Shown: one piece after another, positions 1 to 7,842 of the stretch
How positions within the stretch are numbered: position 1 is the first letter of the stretch
Layout: each line of letters starts with the position of its first letter
NCBI GenBank assembly: GCA_023228245.1
Contig: JALOBN010000084.1
Location: 1 to 8,189 of the forward strand
Reading direction: 5' to 3'
DNA: 8,189 nucleotides
Source: Candidatus Pacearchaeota archaeon
GTDB lineage: Archaea; Nanoarchaeota; Nanoarchaeia; Pacearchaeales; GW2011-AR1
Program-made: the position numbers and the translations under genes
The notes under the pieces: model-generated
What the model saw: only the letters and a program-made list of their open reading frames with translations
Database searches by the model: none
What the model was told of the DNA's origin: nothing

Positions 1-3000
1 AGGTATATTTCAGGCCATTGACGAGAACGGTATCTCCGAGGCACGTTACATCTTGGAAATTACCGCTTGCATCCGCACCATTCAGGTTCACATTCGCGCC
101 CGAAAGATTGACATTGGCGCTAGAACCGGTGCGCTGAACAGGTCCATAGGGCACATTGCCCACGCCGCCCCATTGATTGAGCTTATTGGCAGCGTTGGTG
201 AGACTCGCTCCCGCGTTCGCCCCGCCCGTTTCCAATGATTGCCCGCTCATCAGGGCGGAAAGCTGCAAGACTTGGCCGCCCGTCTTCATGGCAGATGTAT
301 GATATGCAGACCCTTGTGAGATCGATCCCAGCAGGGCTATGCCGCCCTGGGACGCATTCTGTTGTGCTACCGAACCTATTACAGCAATTCTTTGGCCTGC
401 TTCGTTTAGGCCAATCTGGACGGCATTTGCGCCACTCGTGAAGCTGCCCACGATGCTATTGCCGATTGTCAGGGCATTTTTTGATGTCTGATCAAGCAAA
501 GAAATGCTCGATTTAGCGGCGGAAGTCGCCGTGCTCGTGACGGTGGATATGGCGTTCCCTGCCTTATTGGTGATGCTATCCAGGAATGAGCCGATGCCGT
601 ACATATCTTGCTTAAGGAGGTCGGCACCAGAGGTGATGCCAGTGTTTAGGGTTTGGCCCGCGATCTTGGTTTGCTCGGCGGCTTCTTTCGCCGCAGTCTT
701 TGTGGTTGTAGCCGCTTCGCTGGATGAGGATTTGATTTCAGTTGCAACCGGCATCACCTGATCCGCCCATGCTTGCCCGGCCTCGGCTGCATTGGTTACA
801 TAATCAGCGGTATAAGGCGCGATAAGGTCAAATATAGATGATGCAACGGTCTCTTTACCGGTCAGGGTGACGAAATCGCCCTTATCGGTGATCATGTAGA
901 GCTTGCCATCACCTGCGCTCTGAAGTTCGGATGAGACGAAGCCGGAGCCACCCGTTTGATATCCGGCCCATTGCCAATTCGACGCCGATGGTGTTATGCT
1001 CGCGGAATTCGCGATCAATCCGCCTGATGTATATGATCCAGATGCAGTTTTTGTTTTCGTATTCGCGCTCAAGACGGCGGTCGGATTTTGTTGCCTATAT
1101 GCATCGATGTCGCTTGCGGCGATATCCGCGCCCGTTCTTTCGTCGTGATAACTCACGATCTGTGATGGCGAAGAGCTTCCAAGACTCATTGCGCTCTTGG
1201 CGGCGTTGTATGCTTCGTTGATCTTATCCACAATCGGCTGTAGATATCCGGCGATCTTCGTGCCTACTTCGGAGAATGCCGAATAGATACCACTAACCAA
1301 GTTGGCTGCGCCTATCAGAATCGTATTCCACGCTTTTGCAAACGTGCCCTGGATCTCATAGGACGCGGTGGCAAAGGAAGCAAGCAGTTTATTGGCAGAT
1401 GGTTGGACAGCCGCGTACATATTGTCAAGAAGGCCCTGACCTATGCCTTTGACGATCTGCCAACCGATGCCCGCCCATTCGGTGACCGTTCCCCAAACGT
1501 CCGATAGACTATCCCATATAGATTTGTCTGAATTGAACCAAGAATTGATAGCATTGCCTATCGTATTCGCGATATCCCTGCCCAATTGCCTCGGACCATC
1601 CGAGGATATCCAGCCAGCGAGCTTATCATGAATCCAATCTCCGATCTGCAATAATCCACTTATAGCCGCTTGTAATCCAGCAGCAAGCAGATTAATAGCC
1701 TGCGATGCCCATGATCCCCAAGGCTGGTTTATGATGGCTTCGCCCGCGGCGGCAAACCATTGAGCCCAAGGTTGGGCCATGATCGAATTGCCAAGCTCGG
1801 TTAATAGGCTCTTGGCTTGCTCAACGCCTGATTGGAAGGCCGAGGCCATCATTTCAGAAACTTTGCTCCAATCGACTGACAGCAACGCCGAGGTGAATTC
1901 CTTGATCTTCGGCACGCCCGCGATAAAGGCATCAAAAAATTTCTTTACAGGTCCGGAAGTCACCTGCCCGATGGTAATACCCACATCATTGACACCAGAC
2001 ATCACGCGATTCCAGGAACCATTTAGAGTATCGTTTTGCCTATTGAACTCAGAAGTCATCGACTTTGAGCCACTCGCTATATCAGCATAGACGACTTTCA
2101 GGTTTTTGTCAAGGTTCCCAGCCTGGGATGACATAGTGCCCATGACCTTGAAGCCATAGGACCCCCAAATGTCGAACGCTTTCTTGGATCGGTCCGTCGA
2201 GCTGGATATGGTTTCAAGTGCCTTGGATGACTTGGCCATCGTGCCCAAGAAATCATCATTGAGCATTTTGTTGAGACTTTTTACGTCGGTGCCAAGTAGC
2301 TTTGCCCACTCGGTCATCCTAGTATTGCCCGGATTCGCGGCATTGAATGCGGCCTTTTGAGCATTTTCGTATTCCTTGGCCGCCGCTGACGCTTCCTCGG
2401 TGGATTTTCCAGCTTCCTTGTATTGCTGCTTGATGTGGTCTGCGCCCGCCTTAATCTGAGCCTTCGTGGTATCATCCATTTTCAGATCGGGCCCATTCAT
2501 GGCATATTCTATAGCCGATCTGATAGAGGTAGCGCCTTCTTCAGCGTCTACACCGGAAGATATTAGGGTTGCACCGAATGCCGCGACCTTTTCAATGGGC
2601 ACATTGAACATCGTGGCCATTGGCCCGAATGCTTGAGTGAAACTGAGAATTTGAGGCTCCGTGGCGGCGGTGGCATTGCCAAGAGCATTCATGGCAGAAA
2701 GATACTTACCGCTCTGCTCGATGGGCACCTGATAGACGGTCGATATCTTGGATACCTTTGTGGCCATCTCCTCGGCATCCATGCCGAAGGCTATCGATCC
2801 TTTGGATACCAGTTCAGTGGTTGCCGCGATATCCTTATAGGCTACTCCCAGACTGCCCAAGGTGGCCGAAACCCCGTTCAAGGATGTTACGGCTATGCCG
2901 GTGCTAGTAGCAAGATTCCTATTGTTCTCACCGAGCGCCGCGATCTGCTCCTTTGTGCCATCAACCGTTTTGCTTACATTGGCGAGGCTCTGCTCGTAGT

Positions 3001-3205
3001 CCATGAATGCTTTTGTGCCACCGACCAAGGCCCCGGTTATGGCCGCCCCCGCCGCAAGTACGCCAACCTTTAGCGCCGTGCCAATCGCACTGCCAACCTT
3101 CGACGCATGAGCATCCAGCCCCGATAGGTCTCCTTTGATATCATTGATTCCCGATCGGCAGCCAGACCCATCGATCGTGGCAGTAATCTTATAATTTTCA
3201 CCCAA
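1..3205 (-). CDS. Phage tail tape measure protein (TP901 family core), N-terminal 1068 codons, open at left edge
   Basis: The tape measure protein sets tail length, fills the tail tube and helps DNA entry. The frame is open with no stop from the start codon to base 1. Residues 1-15 read MGENYKITATIDGSG, a common opening for this family. Residues 39-67 form a long hydrophobic Ala/Gly segment. From about residue 70 the pattern YEQSLANVSKTV, then repeated Ala/Gly/Ser-rich helices and YKDIAATTELVSKG, fits the TP901 tape measure core. A Trp-rich middle part (about 476-600) and a Ser/Thr/Ala-rich part follow; the visible end carries NVNLSGA/NVNLNGA repeats. TTG at 3205 is chosen because GGTGAT (3210-3215) lies 4 nt upstream; GTG at 3214, directly after the previous stop, is the in-frame alternative. 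By the usual 0.15 nm per residue the tail would exceed about 160 nm. It follows the chaperone region, as is typical. Confidence 0.93.
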   Translation of the reverse strand, partial: MGENYKITATIDGSGCRSGINDIKGDLSGLDAHASKVGSAIGTALKVGVLAAGAAITGALVGGTKAFMDYEQSLANVSKTVDGTKEQIAALGENNRNLATSTGIAVTSLNGVSATLGSLGVAYKDIAATTELVSKGSIAFGMDAEEMATKVSKISTVYQVPIEQSGKYLSAMNALGNATAATEPQILSFTQAFGPMATMFNVPIEKVAAFGATLISSGVDAEEGATSIRSAIEYAMNGPDLKMDDTTKAQIKAGADHIKQQYKEAGKSTEEASAAAKEYENAQKAAFNAANPGNTRMTEWAKLLGTDVKSLNKMLNDDFLGTMAKSSKALETISSSTDRSKKAFDIWGSYGFKVMGTMSSQAGNLDKNLKVVYADIASGSKSMTSEFNRQNDTLNGSWNRVMSGVNDVGITIGQVTSGPVKKFFDAFIAGVPKIKEFTSALLSVDWSKVSEMMASAFQSGVEQAKSLLTELGNSIMAQPWAQWFAAAGEAIINQPWGSWASQAINLLAAGLQAAISGLLQIGDWIHDKLAGWISSDGPRQLGRDIANTIGNAINSWFNSDKSIWDSLSDVWGTVTEWAGIGWQIVKGIGQGLLDNMYAAVQPSANKLLASFATASYEIQGTFAKAWNTILIGAANLVSGIYSAFSEVGTKIAGYLQPIVDKINEAYNAAKSAMSLGSSSPSQIVSYHDERTGADIAASDIDAYRQQNPTAVLSANTKTKTASGSYTSGGLIANSASITPSASNWQWAGYQTGGSGFVSSELQSAGDGKLYMITDKGDFVTLTGKETVASSIFDLIAPYTADYVTNAAEAGQAWADQVMPVATEIKSSSSEAATTTKTAAKEAAEQTKIAGQTLNTGITSGADLLKQDMYGIGSFLDSITNKAGNAISTVTSTATSAAKSSISLLDQTSKNALTIGNSIVGSFTSGANAVQIGLNEAGQRIAVIGSVAQQNASQGGIALLGSISQGSAYHTSAMKTGGQVLQLSALMSGQSLETGGANAGASLTNAANKLNQWGGVGNVPYGPVQRTGSSANVNLSGANVNLNGADASGNFQDVTCLGDTVLVNGLKYT

Positions 3206-3214
3206 AATAATCAC

Positions 3215-3583
3215 CTATGGCGGGCAACCTATCCCAGCGGCTCTTGCCAGTTTCAATATAGCTTCGTGGTCTTGCACCACTTCTTCAGGTTCTTTGTGAA
3301 GAAGTTTTTCAACTGATGGCATTCTTTCAGGATGTGTACTAAATGCCCATGAATTCAGTTGTGCATTCAAATGTTCCAAGGAAAGTCGAGAGTTGAATTC
3401 TGCTTGATCAATCTTCTTGCGGACCTGTCTGATTTGCTCCAGTTCATAAAGGGTCGAGGCATAGGTATCTTTCACGGAGAGGCCGAGAGAGATCCCCGCT
3501 CTCAGCACCCTCTCATAAAATTCATCCTCGCTTACGGGGTCTTCGGCTTCTTCTCCTTCCGTTGACCCTTCTTGCGAAAACCC
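3215..3583 (-). CDS. Tail assembly chaperone, T-like C-terminal part, probably made only as a -1 frameshift fusion
   Basis: This frame is open from about 3630 but has no ATG, GTG or TTG before GTG 3508. That GTG lies inside continuous coding-like sequence (SEDEFYERVLRAGISLGLSVKD), which argues against it as the real start. Entry by -1 frameshifting at the G GGT TTT heptamer (3577-3583) solves this: after the slip, about 120 residues are added, beginning with an acidic linker (SQEGSTEGEEAEDPVSEDE). The piece LGLSVKDTYASTLYELEQI resembles the T domain of lambda-type TACs, which links the chaperone to the tail tube subunits while the G domain coats the tape measure protein. The predicted GT fusion is about 254 residues, close to lambda gpGT at about 279. 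The stop TAG is fused to the tape measure ribosome binding site. If translation began at GTG 3508 it would be a free protein of 97 residues. Confidence 0.8.
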   Translation of the reverse strand, partial: GFSQEGSTEGEEAEDPVSEDEFYERVLRAGISLGLSVKDTYASTLYELEQIRQVRKKIDQAEFNSRLSLEHLNAQLNSWAFSTHPERMPSVEKLLHKEPEEVVQDHEAILKLARAAGIGCPP

Positions 3584-3770
3584 GCGCCCGCCCTCGCAAT
3601 TGCAGATATCTCTTCCATGAAGGCGAATTGCGCCTTATCAAAGGCATTCATGGCCTCGCGCTCATCGTCCAGTTCTGCTGCCTGCTCGTACTGATAATCG
3701 AAATGATCCTGTAGCATCGCTTGGGCCTTTTCCAGATCGATGAACTCTTTCTCGCCATTGAAGCGCTTCC
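3532..3770 (-). CDS. Tail assembly chaperone, second segment of the G-like protein (in -1 frame relative to its start)
   Basis: After the G5 run the coding character continues in this frame: KRFNGEKEFIDLEKAQAM, then MLQDHFDYQYEQAAELDDER and an Ala-rich end with AGAGFRKKGQ, to a TAA stop at 3532-3534. Composition is balanced and acidic-helical, as in the C-terminal half of TAC G domains. No ATG, GTG or TTG precedes ATG 3717 in this frame, and that ATG has no Shine-Dalgarno, so the segment is best read as a continuation of the protein starting at 3977. The joined G-like product would be 148 residues, comparable with lambda gpG (about 140). The basic tail KKGQRKEKKPKTP is made only when the second slip does not occur. 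The break may be a real mutation, a lost G in the read consensus, or another programmed slip. Confidence 0.72.
3577..3583 (-). promoter_or_regulatory. Programmed -1 ribosomal frameshift heptamer G GGT TTT
   Basis: The minus-strand heptamer GGGTTTT fits the X XXY YYZ rule, with GGT (3582-3580) and TTT (3579-3577) as zero-frame codons of the G-like frame. A simultaneous one-base slip re-pairs both tRNAs on GGG and TTT and moves the ribosome into the T-like frame. Eight nucleotides downstream GGGTC (3564-3568) can pair with GACCC (3537-3541) across a 22-nt loop, a spacing suited to a stimulatory structure. The phase, the overlap and the position before the tape measure gene all agree with the conserved TAC frameshift of tailed phages. 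The efficiency cannot be read from sequence. Confidence 0.78.
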
Positions 3771-3977
3771 CCCATTGATGCCCGCCTGGATCATGGCCAC
3801 GAGTTCAGAGACATCGTAGGGCGGGTTGAGCAGTGCCCACCAGTTCTTTGAAGCCATGCCCATGCCTATGAGCTTGAGGCTTTGGGTCGCTTGGATTTGG
3901 GCCTGAACATCGAATCTGAGGCTATACTCTTTGCCCGCGATCATGAGCGGGATGGTTGGAATTCCTTTTTCGGACAT
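3648..3977 (-). CDS. Tail assembly chaperone (TAC) start, G-like N-terminal domain
   Basis: The protein begins MSEKGIPTIPLMIAGKEYSL and continues RFDVQAQIQATQSLKLIG. This is the GKEYxLRFD pattern of phage tail assembly chaperones, which bind the tape measure protein and prevent early tube polymerisation. NWWALLNPPYDVSELVAMIQAG then matches the usual helical part. The start at 3977 is supported by AGGAG (3986-3990) with 8 nt spacing; the upstream TTG 4085 gives an implausible extension. Only residues 1-70 look genuine. After GGG GGA at 3768-3773 this frame turns into a Ser/Arg-rich nonsense-like tail (SASMARKSSSIWKRPKRC) and stops at 3648, while the adjacent -1 frame carries the expected continuation. 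As literally read the product is 109 residues. It lies directly before the tape measure gene, separated by the T-like frame, the conserved position of TAC genes. Confidence 0.75.
   Translation of the reverse strand: MSEKGIPTIPLMIAGKEYSLRFDVQAQIQATQSLKLIGMGMASKNWWALLNPPYDVSELVAMIQAGINGGSASMARKSSSIWKRPKRCYRIISIISTSRQQNWTMSARP
3768..3773 (-). other. Frame break in the chaperone gene at a GGGGGA run
   Basis: The codons GGG GGA (3773-3768) mark the point where coding character moves from the frame of the TAC start to the -1 frame. A sixth G would make one continuous G-like protein of 148 residues. The run is not a canonical slippery heptamer, because the preceding base is T and the following codon is AGC. 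A one-tRNA slip from GGA to GGG is possible. A homopolymer miscall or a true one-base deletion is the simpler explanation. Confidence 0.65.
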
Positions 3978-4156: not shown

Positions 4157-5119
4157 TTAACCTTCTTCATGGTAGCGAACCCTTCCCGATCCAGAAAATG
4201 ATAAATTGGATTCGCATACTCCACTCACATCAGCCGTAACCGACATGCCAGATAGGTTCCCAACCCAAGCAAAGTACCGCTTGGTACCGGTCGTGACATC
4301 CACATAGAAAACCATGAGCACTTTGCCCGCCATCTTTGCGATGATCTCAGCCGGATCGCGTCCACCTGTAAAAGCAACCGCCGTTACAGCGCCGGGCTTC
4401 CCCGTGCCTGCCGATCCGGTCTTGAGCGCGCAGGTGACAATAGCCGCAATTGCCGGATCTGCCATCGCGTGTGCAAGTATCTGGTTGGCTGTCGAATCGG
4501 CGGCTCCACCCACGGTGGTCGCACATGTCACGGTGATCTTATGGGCCGCATATGAGACATCGAGCGCCGTTTCCGTGCCGCTGACAATGTACTCAATGCT
4601 TTCCGCATTGCCAATTGTGCCGCCGGACTTCCACGTCCAAGTAAGATCCTTGTCGCTGCCCTGACTATCGGACCATGATGCTGATGTCACAACCCAATAG
4701 CGATCCAGGGAGCCGGAGAAGTCCCTAAGCGTGTTGGCATACTGCTTGTAGGTGGTCGAGGTATTCAGGCTGGATGGGAAGACAGTTACATCCTTGGTAT
4801 CACATTTCAGGTCGATCTTCCAGCCATGACCGCCGCCCAAGGCTTCCATGCTGAAATAGGACACATCACATGTTACAGTGCCGGTGGTATAGCTCGCCAA
4901 GGTGACATAGCCAATGGCATAGTCGATATTGGTTACCGCCACGGCGGAACCATTGACCTTGAAGACCGCAGAGGCCGCCGGGTCCCACCACATCTTTGAG
5001 CGAGTTGTGATATAGAACTCGTTGGTGGTGCCGACTCTGGTCATGCCTTCGGCAGTGACAGCGATCGATGCACCATGCTCAGTCCAGAAGCCCGCAACTT
5101 TCCCTTTTAGGACAGTCAT
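4157..5119 (-). CDS. Second tail tube-like protein with two extra domains (320 residues)
   Basis: The protein is a structural tail component related to the upstream 129-residue protein. Both share WKxDLKxDTKDxTxF (here residues 100-114) and YKxYxNTLRDxSGSxD (124-139), and both open with MTV-hydrophobic-xGK. Relative to its neighbour it carries an extra N-terminal beta-type part (about 30-95, with WWDPAASAVFKVNG and IDYAIGYVTL, resembling an accessory domain found in phage virion proteins). It also has an inserted domain of about 90 residues (165-255, with KITVTCATT, STANQILAHAMADPAIAAIV and GAVTAVAFTGG). Residues 260-320 resume the tube pattern. ATG 5119 follows the previous stop by 12 nt with a weak GAGGGG site, so the two are probably co-translated. 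Since sheath and tube proteins are unrelated at this level, I read it as a modified tube or tube-capping subunit, not a sheath. Confidence 0.78.
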   Translation of the reverse strand: MTVLKGKVAGFWTEHGASIAVTAEGMTRVGTTNEFYITTRSKMWWDPAASAVFKVNGSAVAVTNIDYAIGYVTLASYTTGTVTCDVSYFSMEALGGGHGWKIDLKCDTKDVTVFPSSLNTSTTYKQYANTLRDFSGSLDRYWVVTSASWSDSQGSDKDLTWTWKSGGTIGNAESIEYIVSGTETALDVSYAAHKITVTCATTVGGAADSTANQILAHAMADPAIAAIVTCALKTGSAGTGKPGAVTAVAFTGGRDPAEIIAKMAGKVLMVFYVDVTTGTKRYFAWVGNLSGMSVTADVSGVCESNLSFSGSGRVRYHEEG

Positions 5120-5131
5120 TTAGACCGCCCC

Positions 5132-5521
5132 TCAGGTATAAGTCATAGCGCCGCTAGACTGCCATGTGTAGTTCACGGTGACGACATCGCTCACATCTAC
5201 GCCAATGCTGCAACCATTGATGGCCACATTGCCCGCGAAGTAGTGGTCTGAGGTCACATAGAGGCTCACGGCTACGGCGGAACCGGCAACTGCCGAATAG
5301 AGCGCAGCCTGCCCGGTGTCGGACATGTCGAGCCTGCCGTCGAATGACCCGCTTACATCTCTCAGCGTGTTTGTGTAGGTCTTGTATTCCACATCATTGC
5401 CCGTCGCGAAACAGGTCGTGTCCTTTGTGTCTACTTTCAAGTCGAATTTCCAATTACTGATCTCGGCAACAAAATCGCTGCCGATCATGATTTTGCCGGT
5501 TTTTCCTGCAATTACGGTCAT
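5132..5521 (-). CDS. Major tail tube protein (129 residues)
   Basis: A small beta-rich protein of the size and position of siphovirus tail tube subunits, which stack as hexamer rings around the tape measure protein. Residues 24-34 read WKFDLKVDTKD, and 46-61 read YKTYTNTLRDVSGSFD, the conserved core of many such proteins (charged hairpin, then NTLRDxSGS). The C-terminal half alternates hydrophobic strands (VAVSLYVTS, YFAGNVAING, VVTVNYTWQSSG). ATG 5521 has AAGGAG 9 nt upstream, the strongest ribosome binding site in the window, as expected for a high-copy structural protein. It is the first gene after a hairpin-rich spacer, which suggests separately tuned expression. The next gene is its probable paralogue. 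Confidence 0.85.
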   Translation of the reverse strand: MTVIAGKTGKIMIGSDFVAEISNWKFDLKVDTKDTTCFATGNDVEYKTYTNTLRDVSGSFDGRLDMSDTGQAALYSAVAGSAVAVSLYVTSDHYFAGNVAINGCSIGVDVSDVVTVNYTWQSSGAMTYT

Positions 5522-5538
5522 TTAATATATCTCCTTTT

Positions 5539-5552
5539 ATAGATGCATCTAT
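5539..5552. repeat. Perfect 14-bp palindrome before the major tail tube gene
   Basis: ATAGATGCATCTAT equals its own reverse complement. It ends 17 bases before the ATG at 5521 and sits only a few bases from the AAGGAG site. It could be a protein-binding operator or, in RNA, an arm for alternative pairing or dimer contact. No function is established. Confidence 0.5.
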
Positions 5553-5553
5553 T

Positions 5554-5575
5554 CAGAGAACGTTGCGCTTCTCTG
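5554..5575 (-). terminator. Hairpin in the spacer before the major tail tube gene
   Basis: CAGAGAA (5575-5569) and TTCTCTG (5560-5554) form a perfect seven-base-pair stem with an 8-nt loop, the same geometry as the hairpin after the second tail tube gene. Two shorter repeats precede it towards the glycosyltransferase stop: GGCC/GGCC around a 4-nt loop (5575-5586) and TTCAT/ATGAA around 6 nt (5587-5602). There is no T-run after the stem, so terminator function is uncertain; RNA processing or mRNA stabilisation are alternatives. Confidence 0.4.
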
Positions 5576-5604
5576 GCCGGGTGGCCTTCATCGAAGAATG
5601 AAAA

Positions 5605-6291
5605 TCATTTGTTAATCTGCTTGACTTTTGTGGGCATTTCTTGGCCAATCACGAAAACGTGTTTGCCGTAGTGCCCAAGCACCAATCTGGTATCCGCCCA
5701 AACCTTGAATCCCGCCTCTCTCGCCCTATGGCAGAAGGCAAAATCCTCCGATAGATAGAGCCATCCAAGTTCCTGATCTTCATAATAGAACGGGCAAAAG
5801 AAAGGATATTCCTCGTCCTGGTTGCAGAGAGGTAGCCGCTTTGCCAACTCTTCCAAGACCTGCCTATGCACCGCCATGAAGCCGGTTGCGCCCCATTTGA
5901 TCTCTTGCAACTTTCCGCCTCGACCTATATCGAAGCTGGAATTGCCAGGAAGAGGCGCAAGGGCCAACTCATCGGCTGGCATCTTCTTCTTAACATAGGG
6001 GCCTATGACGATGGATTTGGTCTCTAGGCAATCAGCAATGAGCTGATAGACGCATTCGGGGGTATACAGAATATCATCGTCGATGAATAACAGGATGTCG
6101 CCGCCGGACTCCAAGAACTTGGTTGCCGCGATGGATCTCACTCTATCTATAGCCGCCTCTTCTGGCTGGCTATAATCGAATTGCAGATCGGCAGGCTTCT
6201 TTGCTAGGGTGCTTAGCAACCCATGTACCGAGGCGGCAGAGAGGCCACGGCTGGAAGGATCGCAGATTAGGACATTTGTCAGGATAATCAC
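5605..6291 (-). CDS. GT-A fold glycosyltransferase within the tail gene cluster (228 residues)
   Basis: A compact, soluble sugar-transferase-like protein. The first strand is IILTNVLIC (2-10). Residues 66-73 read ILLFIDDD: a hydrophobic strand ending in the DxD motif that binds the metal and nucleotide sugar (Asp71, Asp73). Further family signs are KWGATGFMAVHRQVLEEL (132-149), the SEDFAFCHRAREAGFKVWAD block (181-200), typical of the acceptor and catalytic side, and His207 in LGHYG, a likely metal ligand. No membrane segment or signal peptide is seen. The start GTG 6291 directly abuts the TAG of the preceding gene with no separate Shine-Dalgarno. Translation is probably coupled, or GGTGAT serves as the site for a downstream CTG. 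Substrate is unknown; virion tail, host surface or DNA base sugars are all possible. Confidence 0.82.
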   Translation of the reverse strand: MIILTNVLICDPSSRGLSAASVHGLLSTLAKKPADLQFDYSQPEEAAIDRVRSIAATKFLESGGDILLFIDDDILYTPECVYQLIADCLETKSIVIGPYVKKKMPADELALAPLPGNSSFDIGRGGKLQEIKWGATGFMAVHRQVLEELAKRLPLCNQDEEYPFFCPFYYEDQELGWLYLSEDFAFCHRAREAGFKVWADTRLVLGHYGKHVFVIGQEMPTKVKQINK

Positions 6292-6759
6292 CTAAATAGA
6301 ATAGTAAATTGTGCCTCGGACAGTCATTATTTGCCTAAAGAAATTGGCCGCATCATCATATTGCGGCGACCTGCTCACCGATGCAACCATAAAATCGTAG
6401 GCTTCCCCGCCATAGGTCACAACCATGTTTGCCTGTAGCTTATTTGCAATGAGAACCGCCGTCTCCCTCGCATAGGCATTGGACTCTCTGCTTATGACCT
6501 CTATTCCTATCAGGCAATCGGATTTCAAGGACGGATTGCCATTGTAGAAGCAGGAAACCGCTTCGGTGACACTGATCTCATAGACGCCGATGCAAGTTTT
6601 GGATGGGTTAAGTGTCTCATTCAGATAGCCATCGGCTAATGTAATCTGATAGCCTGGGATGATGGCGGGTAAGCCATCGGCTTGCCGAACTTTGGCCGAG
6701 ATAGTTGTATCTTCCGATAGCCACCAACAGATGATCGGCACAAGATTTGATCCATCCAT
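6292..6759 (-). CDS. Putative tail terminator / tail completion protein (155 residues)
   Basis: Assigned mainly by position and size. In siphovirus clusters the gene after the HK97-gp10-like neck protein and before the tail tube is usually the tail terminator, a hexameric ring that ends tail growth and docks to the head. The sequence is compatible: an N-terminal helix region (NLVPIICWWLSED), a beta-type middle (GYQITLADGYL, CIGVYEISV), a long helix (YARETAVLIANKLQANM) and a C-terminal strand pair ending FFRQIMTVRGTIYYSI, a common end for terminator-like proteins. No motif is diagnostic on its own. ATG 6759 is preceded by GGAG and follows the upstream TAA after a single base. The TAG stop is fused to the start of the glycosyltransferase. 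Confidence 0.6.
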   Translation of the reverse strand: MDGSNLVPIICWWLSEDTTISAKVRQADGLPAIIPGYQITLADGYLNETLNPSKTCIGVYEISVTEAVSCFYNGNPSLKSDCLIGIEVISRESNAYARETAVLIANKLQANMVVTYGGEAYDFMVASVSRSPQYDDAANFFRQIMTVRGTIYYSI

Positions 6760-6760
6760 G

Positions 6761-7114
6761 TTATTTCTCCAATTCTTCTTTTAGGATTTTACTAATCTGT
6801 GGTATAGCCGCGTTCACGCCTGGCTCCAAATGCGGTTTGGCCGACATTCGCGAGGTGCCCTTCTCGACAAAAATTTGATAATCCACATCGCTGGTAAAAT
6901 CTATCTGCCTCACGCCATCGGCGGGCTTGCTTATAATGGTGCATCGTGGATAGCTATTCTTCAGATTGGATGTATCCACCGGGCAGCGGGCTTGGATCTC
7001 CTGAACTCCGATGACCTTGCCCTTATTGGCGGCCCGCTCAACCGCGGCATCAACTTTTGCGGCCTTGGTGGTCAGTGATGCGAGGACCGCGGCCAGATTG
7101 CTAGACCAAGCCAT
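6761..7114 (-). CDS. HK97-gp10-like head-tail joining (neck) protein (117 residues)
   Basis: The pattern is that of the HK97-gp10-like family: an N-terminal amphipathic helix (KAAKVDAAVERAANKGKVIGVQEI), CPVDTSNLKNSY (44-55; the family hallmark is P-V-D-T-G/S-x-L-x-x-S), a strand with VDYQIFVEKGTSRMSAKPHL (77-96; Y-x-x-x-V-E-x-G-T and M-x-A-x-P-x-L are typical) and a C-terminal helix LKEELEK. Length is normal for the family. It acts at the neck of the virion in head-tail joining or tail completion. ATG 7114 has GGTGAT 3 nt upstream, overlapping the TAG stop of the preceding gene, so expression is coupled to it. Confidence 0.88.
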   Translation of the reverse strand: MAWSSNLAAVLASLTTKAAKVDAAVERAANKGKVIGVQEIQARCPVDTSNLKNSYPRCTIISKPADGVRQIDFTSDVDYQIFVEKGTSRMSAKPHLEPGVNAAIPQISKILKEELEK

Positions 7115-7117
7115 GCT

Positions 7118-7125
7118 ATCACCTA
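7118..7125 (-). promoter_or_regulatory. Fused stop and ribosome binding site TAGGTGAT
   Basis: The TAG of the minor head gene overlaps GGTGAT, a perfect match to the 16S rRNA tail complement, placed 3 nt before ATG 7114. The same eight bases occur at 6287-6294 and 3210-3217, at two other gene junctions of this operon, and decide or support the starts there. Confidence 0.6.
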
Positions 7126-7842
7126 GAAAATATATTCATCATGCCCTCGGCAGTTGATATCCTTCTCGCCGGGGAACATCTCGCCATTGCTATATGGCTT
7201 ATCGATAGCCACAACCTGCCCGATCATGGCCCTATGCGACGCCCTGGTGCGCTTATCTCCCACTTCCCACCGTCTCTTTTTGGTCGCTCCATTGTCGCCC
7301 GCAAACCGCCACGATCCATAATTGGTTGCTCTGAATTTTTCAGTCCTTATTATCGTTTCTGTCCTATGATTGCCTTGATCAAGCACATATCGCAGATGAG
7401 GCTGCTGATCTATGATCTTCGCGAATGGCCTTTCATTTCGGCCCGCGTCATACCAGATGAAATTTACAAGCTTTCTCTGATCGGTTCTGCTCATATTGGT
7501 TATGAACTCGCCGCCATGTGATTTTATGTAGCGGTTCATATAGTCTTGGGCAGTTGGCTTTGGAATGACGGGCAGCCGATATTTCTTCGCGACCTCGGCT
7601 GATCCGCCCACGATCGCATCCAAGATATAGGCCGCGCCTACTATCTCCCATATCCTGCTATTCTTCTCCTCGCTCGCGACCTGATACCTCTTCCATTCCG
7701 GTGCTGACCGGATTTGCTGCTCAACTTCTGCTGCATCATAGGTACCATCGATCGAGAAGAATTCGATAGATGCGAGGAGCTTGAGGATATGCGGGCCGAA
7801 CTTCCTCAGAAGCTCATGTATGGCGCGGTCTGGTAGGGGCAT
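7123..7842 (-). CDS. Minor head / head morphogenesis protein with MuF (SPP1 gp7-like) C-terminal domain (239 residues)
   Basis: The C-terminal third has the MuF signature: TEKFRATNYGSW (about 167-178), then KKRRWEVGDKRTRASHRAM (188-206; W192, D196, RTR, H203), a Gly-Pro loop (MFPGEKD) and INCRGH (229-234), matching the usual NCRC with Gly-His in place of the last Cys. Such proteins enter the capsid with the portal in few copies and assist assembly or DNA delivery. The N-terminal part is helical and unrecognised. ATG 7842 has GGTGA 9 nt upstream. It is the first gene of the leftward operon, after the divergent promoter. At 239 residues it is short for the family. Unusually, no major capsid, scaffold or connector gene lies between it and the neck gene. 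Confidence 0.8.
   Translation of the reverse strand: MPLPDRAIHELLRKFGPHILKLLASIEFFSIDGTYDAAEVEQQIRSAPEWKRYQVASEEKNSRIWEIVGAAYILDAIVGGSAEVAKKYRLPVIPKPTAQDYMNRYIKSHGGEFITNMSRTDQRKLVNFIWYDAGRNERPFAKIIDQQPHLRYVLDQGNHRTETIIRTEKFRATNYGSWRFAGDNGATKKRRWEVGDKRTRASHRAMIGQVVAIDKPYSNGEMFPGEKDINCRGHDEYIF

Follow-up and report, generated by a model that had tools for sequence, protein, structure and literature searches.

The lambda slip site is GGGAAAG. The tail assembly chaperones of that phage, gpG and gpGT, arise by a -1 frameshift, as set out in the portion of PMC5009743 at hand. Among archaeal viruses, the tail frameshifts of psiM2, psiM100 and phiCh1 are attributed to Xu et al. 2004, and a slip site, A_AAA_AAG, has been reported for psiM2 (extracts of PMC3483164). 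A -1 G-T frameshift has also been predicted in HVTV-1 and in HCTV-1, -2 and -5 (extracts of PMC5009743 and PMC8211752), and a +1 slip at TTT CGC has been proposed for the HF1-group haloviruses in the accessible part of PMC7230728. Programmed frameshifting in an archaeal virus, which the initial annotation of the present locus had raised should its host be archaeal, is already in print for psiM2, psiM100, phiCh1, HVTV-1 and HCTV-1, -2 and -5, going by the same partial texts. An archaeal host is likely here.

The locus lies in a window of 8,189 nt, the whole stretch of DNA that was analysed, which holds a minus-strand tail gene module running from head morphogenesis through the tape measure gene (Table 1). 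It is highly probable that this module carries a lambda G/GT-type pair of tail assembly chaperones joined by a -1 frameshift. The majority of ribosomes would follow the G-like frame until it stops at 3532, while a minority would decode GGT TTT, slip back by one base at G_GGT_TTT and read on in the T-like frame to 3215. The product of the slip would be a fusion, with a predicted length of 254 residues (134 + 120) in one related contig, L001, and 257 in another, L002. If the parallel with lambda holds, G and GT would form a coat on the tape measure protein, whose gene comes next, and recruitment of the major tail protein would fall to the T domain. We infer the slip itself, as well as its efficiency, its stimulator and the chaperone role of G and GT. 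The frameshift joining the two frames, as originally proposed, is strongly supported by conservation, by selection on T and by a T profile match; on the other side, the G frame of the window is interrupted and the downstream stem is partly kept.

Table 1. Features of the tail module and of the proposed frameshift locus, in window coordinates
Feature	Position	Strand	Evidence or remark
Tape measure protein; gene extends beyond the window edge	2..3214	minus	phrog_28 tail length tape measure, E 1e-38; PF10145, E 2.3e-20
T-like domain, -1 frame, entered at the heptamer; stop 3217..3215	3215..3583	minus	dN/dS and profile match to vir515 T
G-like chaperone, C-terminal part with heptamer; TAA stop 3534..3532	3532..3783	minus	87% identity to L002 G residues 66-148, frame -3
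T-frame codon at the rival start site	3533..3535	minus	Codon comparison: GTA in window, ATA in L001, GTG in L002
Candidate stimulatory stem, GGGTC (3568..3564) / GACCC (3541..3537)	3537..3568	minus	Folding
Slippery heptamer G_GGT_TTT (X_XXY_YYZ in the zero frame)	3577..3583	minus	Single copy in window; in phase in 3/3 genomes
G run where the G-like frame changes in the window	3769..3773	minus	Intact copies in L001 and L002
G-like chaperone, N-terminal part (ATG 3977)	3771..3977	minus	97% identity to L002 G residues 1-69, frame -1
320-aa tail-module protein upstream of G	4157..5119	minus	92% identity to L002 counterpart
Major tail protein	5132..5521	minus	phrog_1407, E 2.9e-9; vir515 major tail protein likewise annotated phrog_1407
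Glycosyltransferase-like gene	5605-6291	minus	
Neck gene	6761-7114	minus	
Head morphogenesis gene	7123-7842	minus	

As first described, the heptamer stands in the exact phase for a -1 shift, with GGT and TTT being codons of the G-like frame, and GGGTTTT occurs nowhere else in the window. Past the slip, the -1 frame, which is open from 5′ of the heptamer, continues for 120 aa. The initial annotation had proposed looking at homologous loci for conservation of the heptamer and the overlap, and both are retained, in the same -1 phase, in L001 (heptamer at 3794) and L002 (6611), that is, in three of three genomes. This DNA-level conservation is drawn from only three genomes, the window and two relatives from IMG/VR, and these relatives are close, with 87-88% identity to the window in the heptamer-bearing part of G. 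The overlap of the two frames, which is situated between the major tail protein and tape measure genes, measures 103 nt in the window, 106 nt in L001 and 133 nt in L002.

Phase-correct XXXYYYZ heptamers (where YYY is AAA or TTT) occurred twice in 2244 codon positions of seven other window genes, neither of them as GGGTTTT; this rate predicts about 0.03 for an overlap of 34 codons. When the overlap was resampled synonymously with the codon usage of the window, some in-phase heptamer appeared in 34-36% of trials, so that the heptamer of one genome is weak evidence. The case is carried by conservation of the heptamer together with a selected T frame, rather than by the heptamer in a single genome. 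Both heptamer codons are the less common choices in the seven window genes (GGT, 32/206 Gly; TTT, 18/70 Phe). From GCG GGT TTT onward, six codons in a row are unchanged, whereas upstream 47 of 110 conserved degenerate codons differ, among them 10 of the 16 directly before the slip site. The degeneracy-matched chance of an unchanged six-codon run is 0.025, for a run length chosen after seeing where it ended; for no change in the three heptamer codons alone, the chance is about 0.12 (multiplied from per-codon rates). At the protein level, the G-F residues at the slip site are invariant in all 12 aligned G proteins, an alignment that left out the truncated protein of the window, P0011. A GAGG located 5′ of the slip site is also kept in all three genomes and, as a suggestion from its sequence, might act as an internal Shine-Dalgarno element.

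Selection on the T-like frame provides the second line of evidence. Over the whole frame, dN/dS was 0.105, 0.069 and 0.107 in three pairs, the first two of which involve the window, and after the overlap it was 0.078, 0.038 and 0.061. The 16 T codons that overlap G gave no sign of purifying selection (two pairs at dN/dS 1.8, the third with zero synonymous changes), so the overlap part of T lacks independent support as protein. The first ATG, GTG or TTG of the T frame is a GTG at +75 from the heptamer in the window (minus 3508) and a codon at +108 in L001, and both fall inside or after the conserved SEDEFYERVLRAG stretch. Between the overlap and the first such codon of L001, a GTG, there are 19 T codons, of which 13 carry synonymous changes only, two carry amino-acid changes and four are identical. 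Given this selection on a T sequence that no ATG, GTG or TTG precedes, entry from G is the simplest reading. Initially, T had been said to have no usable start upstream of the overlap and yet to read as coding there. The window and L001 have no canonical start before the positions just given, L002 has a GTG at the overlap, and the purifying signal is missing from the overlap.

That GTG of L002, at 6662, overlaps the TGA of G, and two T relatives, P0012 and P0013, are predicted to begin at the overlap with VSEDEF. These observations would suit a separate T gene that starts at the overlap through translational coupling, with the stop of G lying over a GTG start (GTGA) and with no frameshift at all. 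We regard such an arrangement as unlikely. The same codon differs in the window and L001 (Table 1), although L001 might use a non-canonical start at its ATA, and the canonical starts of both come only at the distances given above. L002, moreover, retains the heptamer as well, and in vir515 (BK063672.1; its host is recorded as Methanosarcinales) the T frame is without ATG, GTG or TTG until 10736, close to its end. The predicted starts of P0014, P0015 and P0016 are each located elsewhere inside T, the kind of scatter to be expected if T has no start of its own; contig ends or sequence differences may account for part of it.

The -1 frameshift also has to be reconciled with the state of the G-like frame in the window. 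The frame that opens at ATG 3977 reaches a stop at 3648 after 109 aa, while the part with the heptamer sits in a different frame; counted from this ATG, the heptamer ends after 401 nt, which is no multiple of three. L002 G maps onto the window as two pieces in two frames that meet at the G run. The initial annotation, in giving the window a single G frame of 148 residues, missed this break. In the relatives G is intact, with 148 aa in L001 and 149 aa in L002, and these two proteins, along with ten from the databases (P0001-P0010; 64-95% identity to L002 G), read through the break position uninterrupted. P0011, the eleventh database match, is the window's own truncated frame. Most simply, the net one-base break in the window comes from a recent mutation or from an error in sequencing or assembly. 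The products of about 148 and 254 residues that had been claimed are exact for L001; for the window as sequenced, the G frame is interrupted upstream of the slip.

The same break could instead mean that the G-T region of the window is a decaying pseudogene that has changed frame twice, and that the heptamer is there by accident, through conservation of the protein. This is very improbable: L001 and L002 have an intact G and an identical T phase, the T frame is constrained in both comparisons that involve the window, and each of the six further L002 proteins compared, among them T, maps to a single window frame.

G runs are slip-prone, and both frame changes of the window run in the -1 direction, as they would if the break were itself programmed and two successive -1 shifts, one of them the GGGTTTT slip, were needed for the full product. 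There is very little likelihood of this either, as the break sequence has no in-phase X_XXY_YYZ heptamer, and L001, L002 and the ten database proteins have no break to bridge. A +1 slip at TTT CGC was rejected, since the +1 frame of the window and of L001 fails to reach T.

A single -1 slip might be helped by RNA structure downstream, and a GGGTC/GACCC stem 8 nt from the heptamer had been noted from the start. In the window, the stem region folds at -11.4 kcal/mol with a z of -2.2 over 47 nt; longer spans gave z values of -1.25 (84 nt, from the heptamer) and -0.5 (97 nt). The equivalent 47-50 nt are unremarkable in the relatives, with -3.2 kcal/mol and z +1.2 in L001 and -8.7 kcal/mol and z -0.2 in L002. 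L001 and L002 have each lost one of the five stem pairs, L002 with one double change besides; the 11 pairs drawn are all present in the window, against 9 in each relative. The stem is present in the window but only partly kept in L001 and L002, and is a possible stimulator of frameshifting.

T gave no direct Pfam match. PHROG family phrog_2066 was touched by five of seven T members, with a best E of 0.0014, and vir515 T matches this family at 3.6e-4. The T profile aligned with vir515 T at an hhalign score of 28.2 over 90-91 columns, where the best of 200 shuffles reached 18.1 (0/200 as good) and hhalign's own probability was only about 40%. As vir515 T is itself a PF09550 Phage_TAC_6 protein at 32.9 bits (cut-off 23.4), the T of the window is tied by profile comparison to known tail assembly chaperones at one step removed, and the original description of it as a T-like chaperone is supported by a Phage_TAC_6 protein found in the same gene order. 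In the vir515 record (L009), the Phage_TAC_6 domain is carried by an unannotated -1 frame at 10325-10825. The T frame of the psiM2 record is likewise unannotated, and annotation thus loses the T gene. No significant family match was obtained for G in the family and profile searches: phrog_2115 ('tail protein') was touched by three of 12 G members at a best E of 0.074, and vir515 G matches it at 7.4e-5. The predicted structure of G was poor (pLDDT 49). Neither G nor T matched anything among the phage records searched, and G-like proteins had no host genome match in scans of genome contigs.

The position of the pair just before the tape measure gene, which had been part of the original argument, is confirmed, since the T stop directly adjoins the tape measure ORF. 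Several further observations can be made about the neighbourhood. The listed GTG start of the window's tape measure gene overlaps AGGTGAT, which resembles a ribosome site (window 3200-3217). For L002 a TTG at 6989 is listed instead, and the window gene may really begin at the TTG just downstream of its listed GTG. L001 T is 91% identical to that of the window, yet the L001 contig had no match to the window tape measure protein at E 1e-3 (the region next to the L001 chaperones, 4163-6406, being compared with window 2-3214). From these sequences, the tape measure gene seems to have been swapped beside conserved chaperones. Upstream of G, two opposite-strand genes separate it from the 320-aa gene in L001 (1827-3445) and L002 (4644-6145) and are absent from the short stretch in the window; one of them is ParB-like, by matches of the L001 copy. 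In vir515, the protein at the equivalent position is matched by the L002 counterpart of the 320-aa protein (107 aa, BLASTP E 3e-10). A stretch of about 40 aa is common to the 320-aa protein and the major tail protein, with 57-60% identity (window 4703-4822 and 5339-5452; L002 proteins against the window), which suggests that the two are partly paralogous.

DNA relatives of the locus came only from the L001 and L002 contigs in scans of viral contigs, and none came from the genome contigs scanned. The entries L003, L005, L007, L014 and L015 were cut from the same two contigs, and L004 is the full length of one; two pattern-search matches, L006 and L008, were dropped because nothing G-like was encoded at the match. 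On mixed protein matches, the virus probably has an archaeal host, a methanogen. Among 50,697 phage records, the only match to the 523-aa tail protein of L001 at E 1e-3 was vir515 (35% over 98%), and a search in the other direction, from the vir515 tail protein, returned that protein itself and two Thermoanaerobacterium phage records (24% over 51%). The head protein of the window matched 14 records, archaeal and bacterial mixed, including another Methanosarcinales virus and Drs3. Low-identity matches were found for the tape measure protein in 188 phage records, the named ones being bacterial phages, and for the glycosyltransferase in 51, where those named are again bacterial phages and none is named as archaeal. 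The ParB-like protein of L001 had mostly bacterial matches; its 28 phage records include two from Methanoculleus viruses, and the named members of its 64 plasmid records are bacterial.

Taken as a whole, the locus is very likely a conserved and well-supported example of the known lambda G/GT mechanism, and as such is ordinary among tailed viruses. Its one unusual trait, judged against the partial literature at hand, is a U-type second codon. HCTV-1, -2 and -5 have A-type second codons and none of the U type, in the portion of PMC5009743 consulted, in contrast to the U-type codon here. The same portion counts G_GGU_UUU with the sites at which mammalian ribosomes shift most readily, and the parts of the literature on archaeal tail frameshifts that were covered gave no archaeal G_GGU_UUU tail slip site, though one may yet be known. 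It is a tentative idea, and a somewhat doubtful one, that a lineage of methanogen viruses uses a G_GGU_UUU site with tRNA-Phe as the second tRNA, unlike the A-type sites of HCTV-1, -2 and -5 and psiM2. If true, the G:GT ratio could be governed by wye-type modification of archaeal tRNA-Phe. In any event, the locus adds a conserved case of tail-gene frameshifting to the poorly sampled viruses of probable methanogens, with a slip site type that differs from the archaeal ones described in the sources at hand.

For comparison with known systems, vir525 (25000-60090; it has a tail sheath gene) and vir555 (first 30,000 bases) were left out. Relative to lambda, the heptamer is G_GGT_TTT, the searches placed G in no known family, and the G/GT pair is known from sequence. 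In Drs3 (L011), an open frame follows the G-like gene and precedes a gene of tape measure size (23635-23790); it lies in +1, has no ATG, GTG or TTG until 23776 and perhaps reflects a +1 frameshift, and its profile match to T was nil. No in-phase heptamer was found in a -1 overlap at Drs3 or at psiM2 ORF20. At psiM2 ORF19, the script for in-phase heptamers found AAAAAAG in a -1 overlap before the report of that site was known to us, which served as a positive control. Methanobacterium phage psiM2 thus resembles the present locus in having a -1 overlap with an in-phase heptamer in a methanogen virus; it differs in the heptamer itself, A_AAA_AAG, in a T similarity that is undetectable and in a tape measure gene that is not directly next. 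The G protein of vir515 cannot be aligned with the window-type G, and its sole in-phase heptamer, GGGAAAC (10355), lies 186 nt before the G end and may not be the true site. In other respects vir515 is much like the window: the order is major tail protein, a 332-aa protein, G, an unannotated -1 T and tape measure, the T lies in the -1 frame without an early start codon, the T profiles align, and its tail protein is matched by that of L001.
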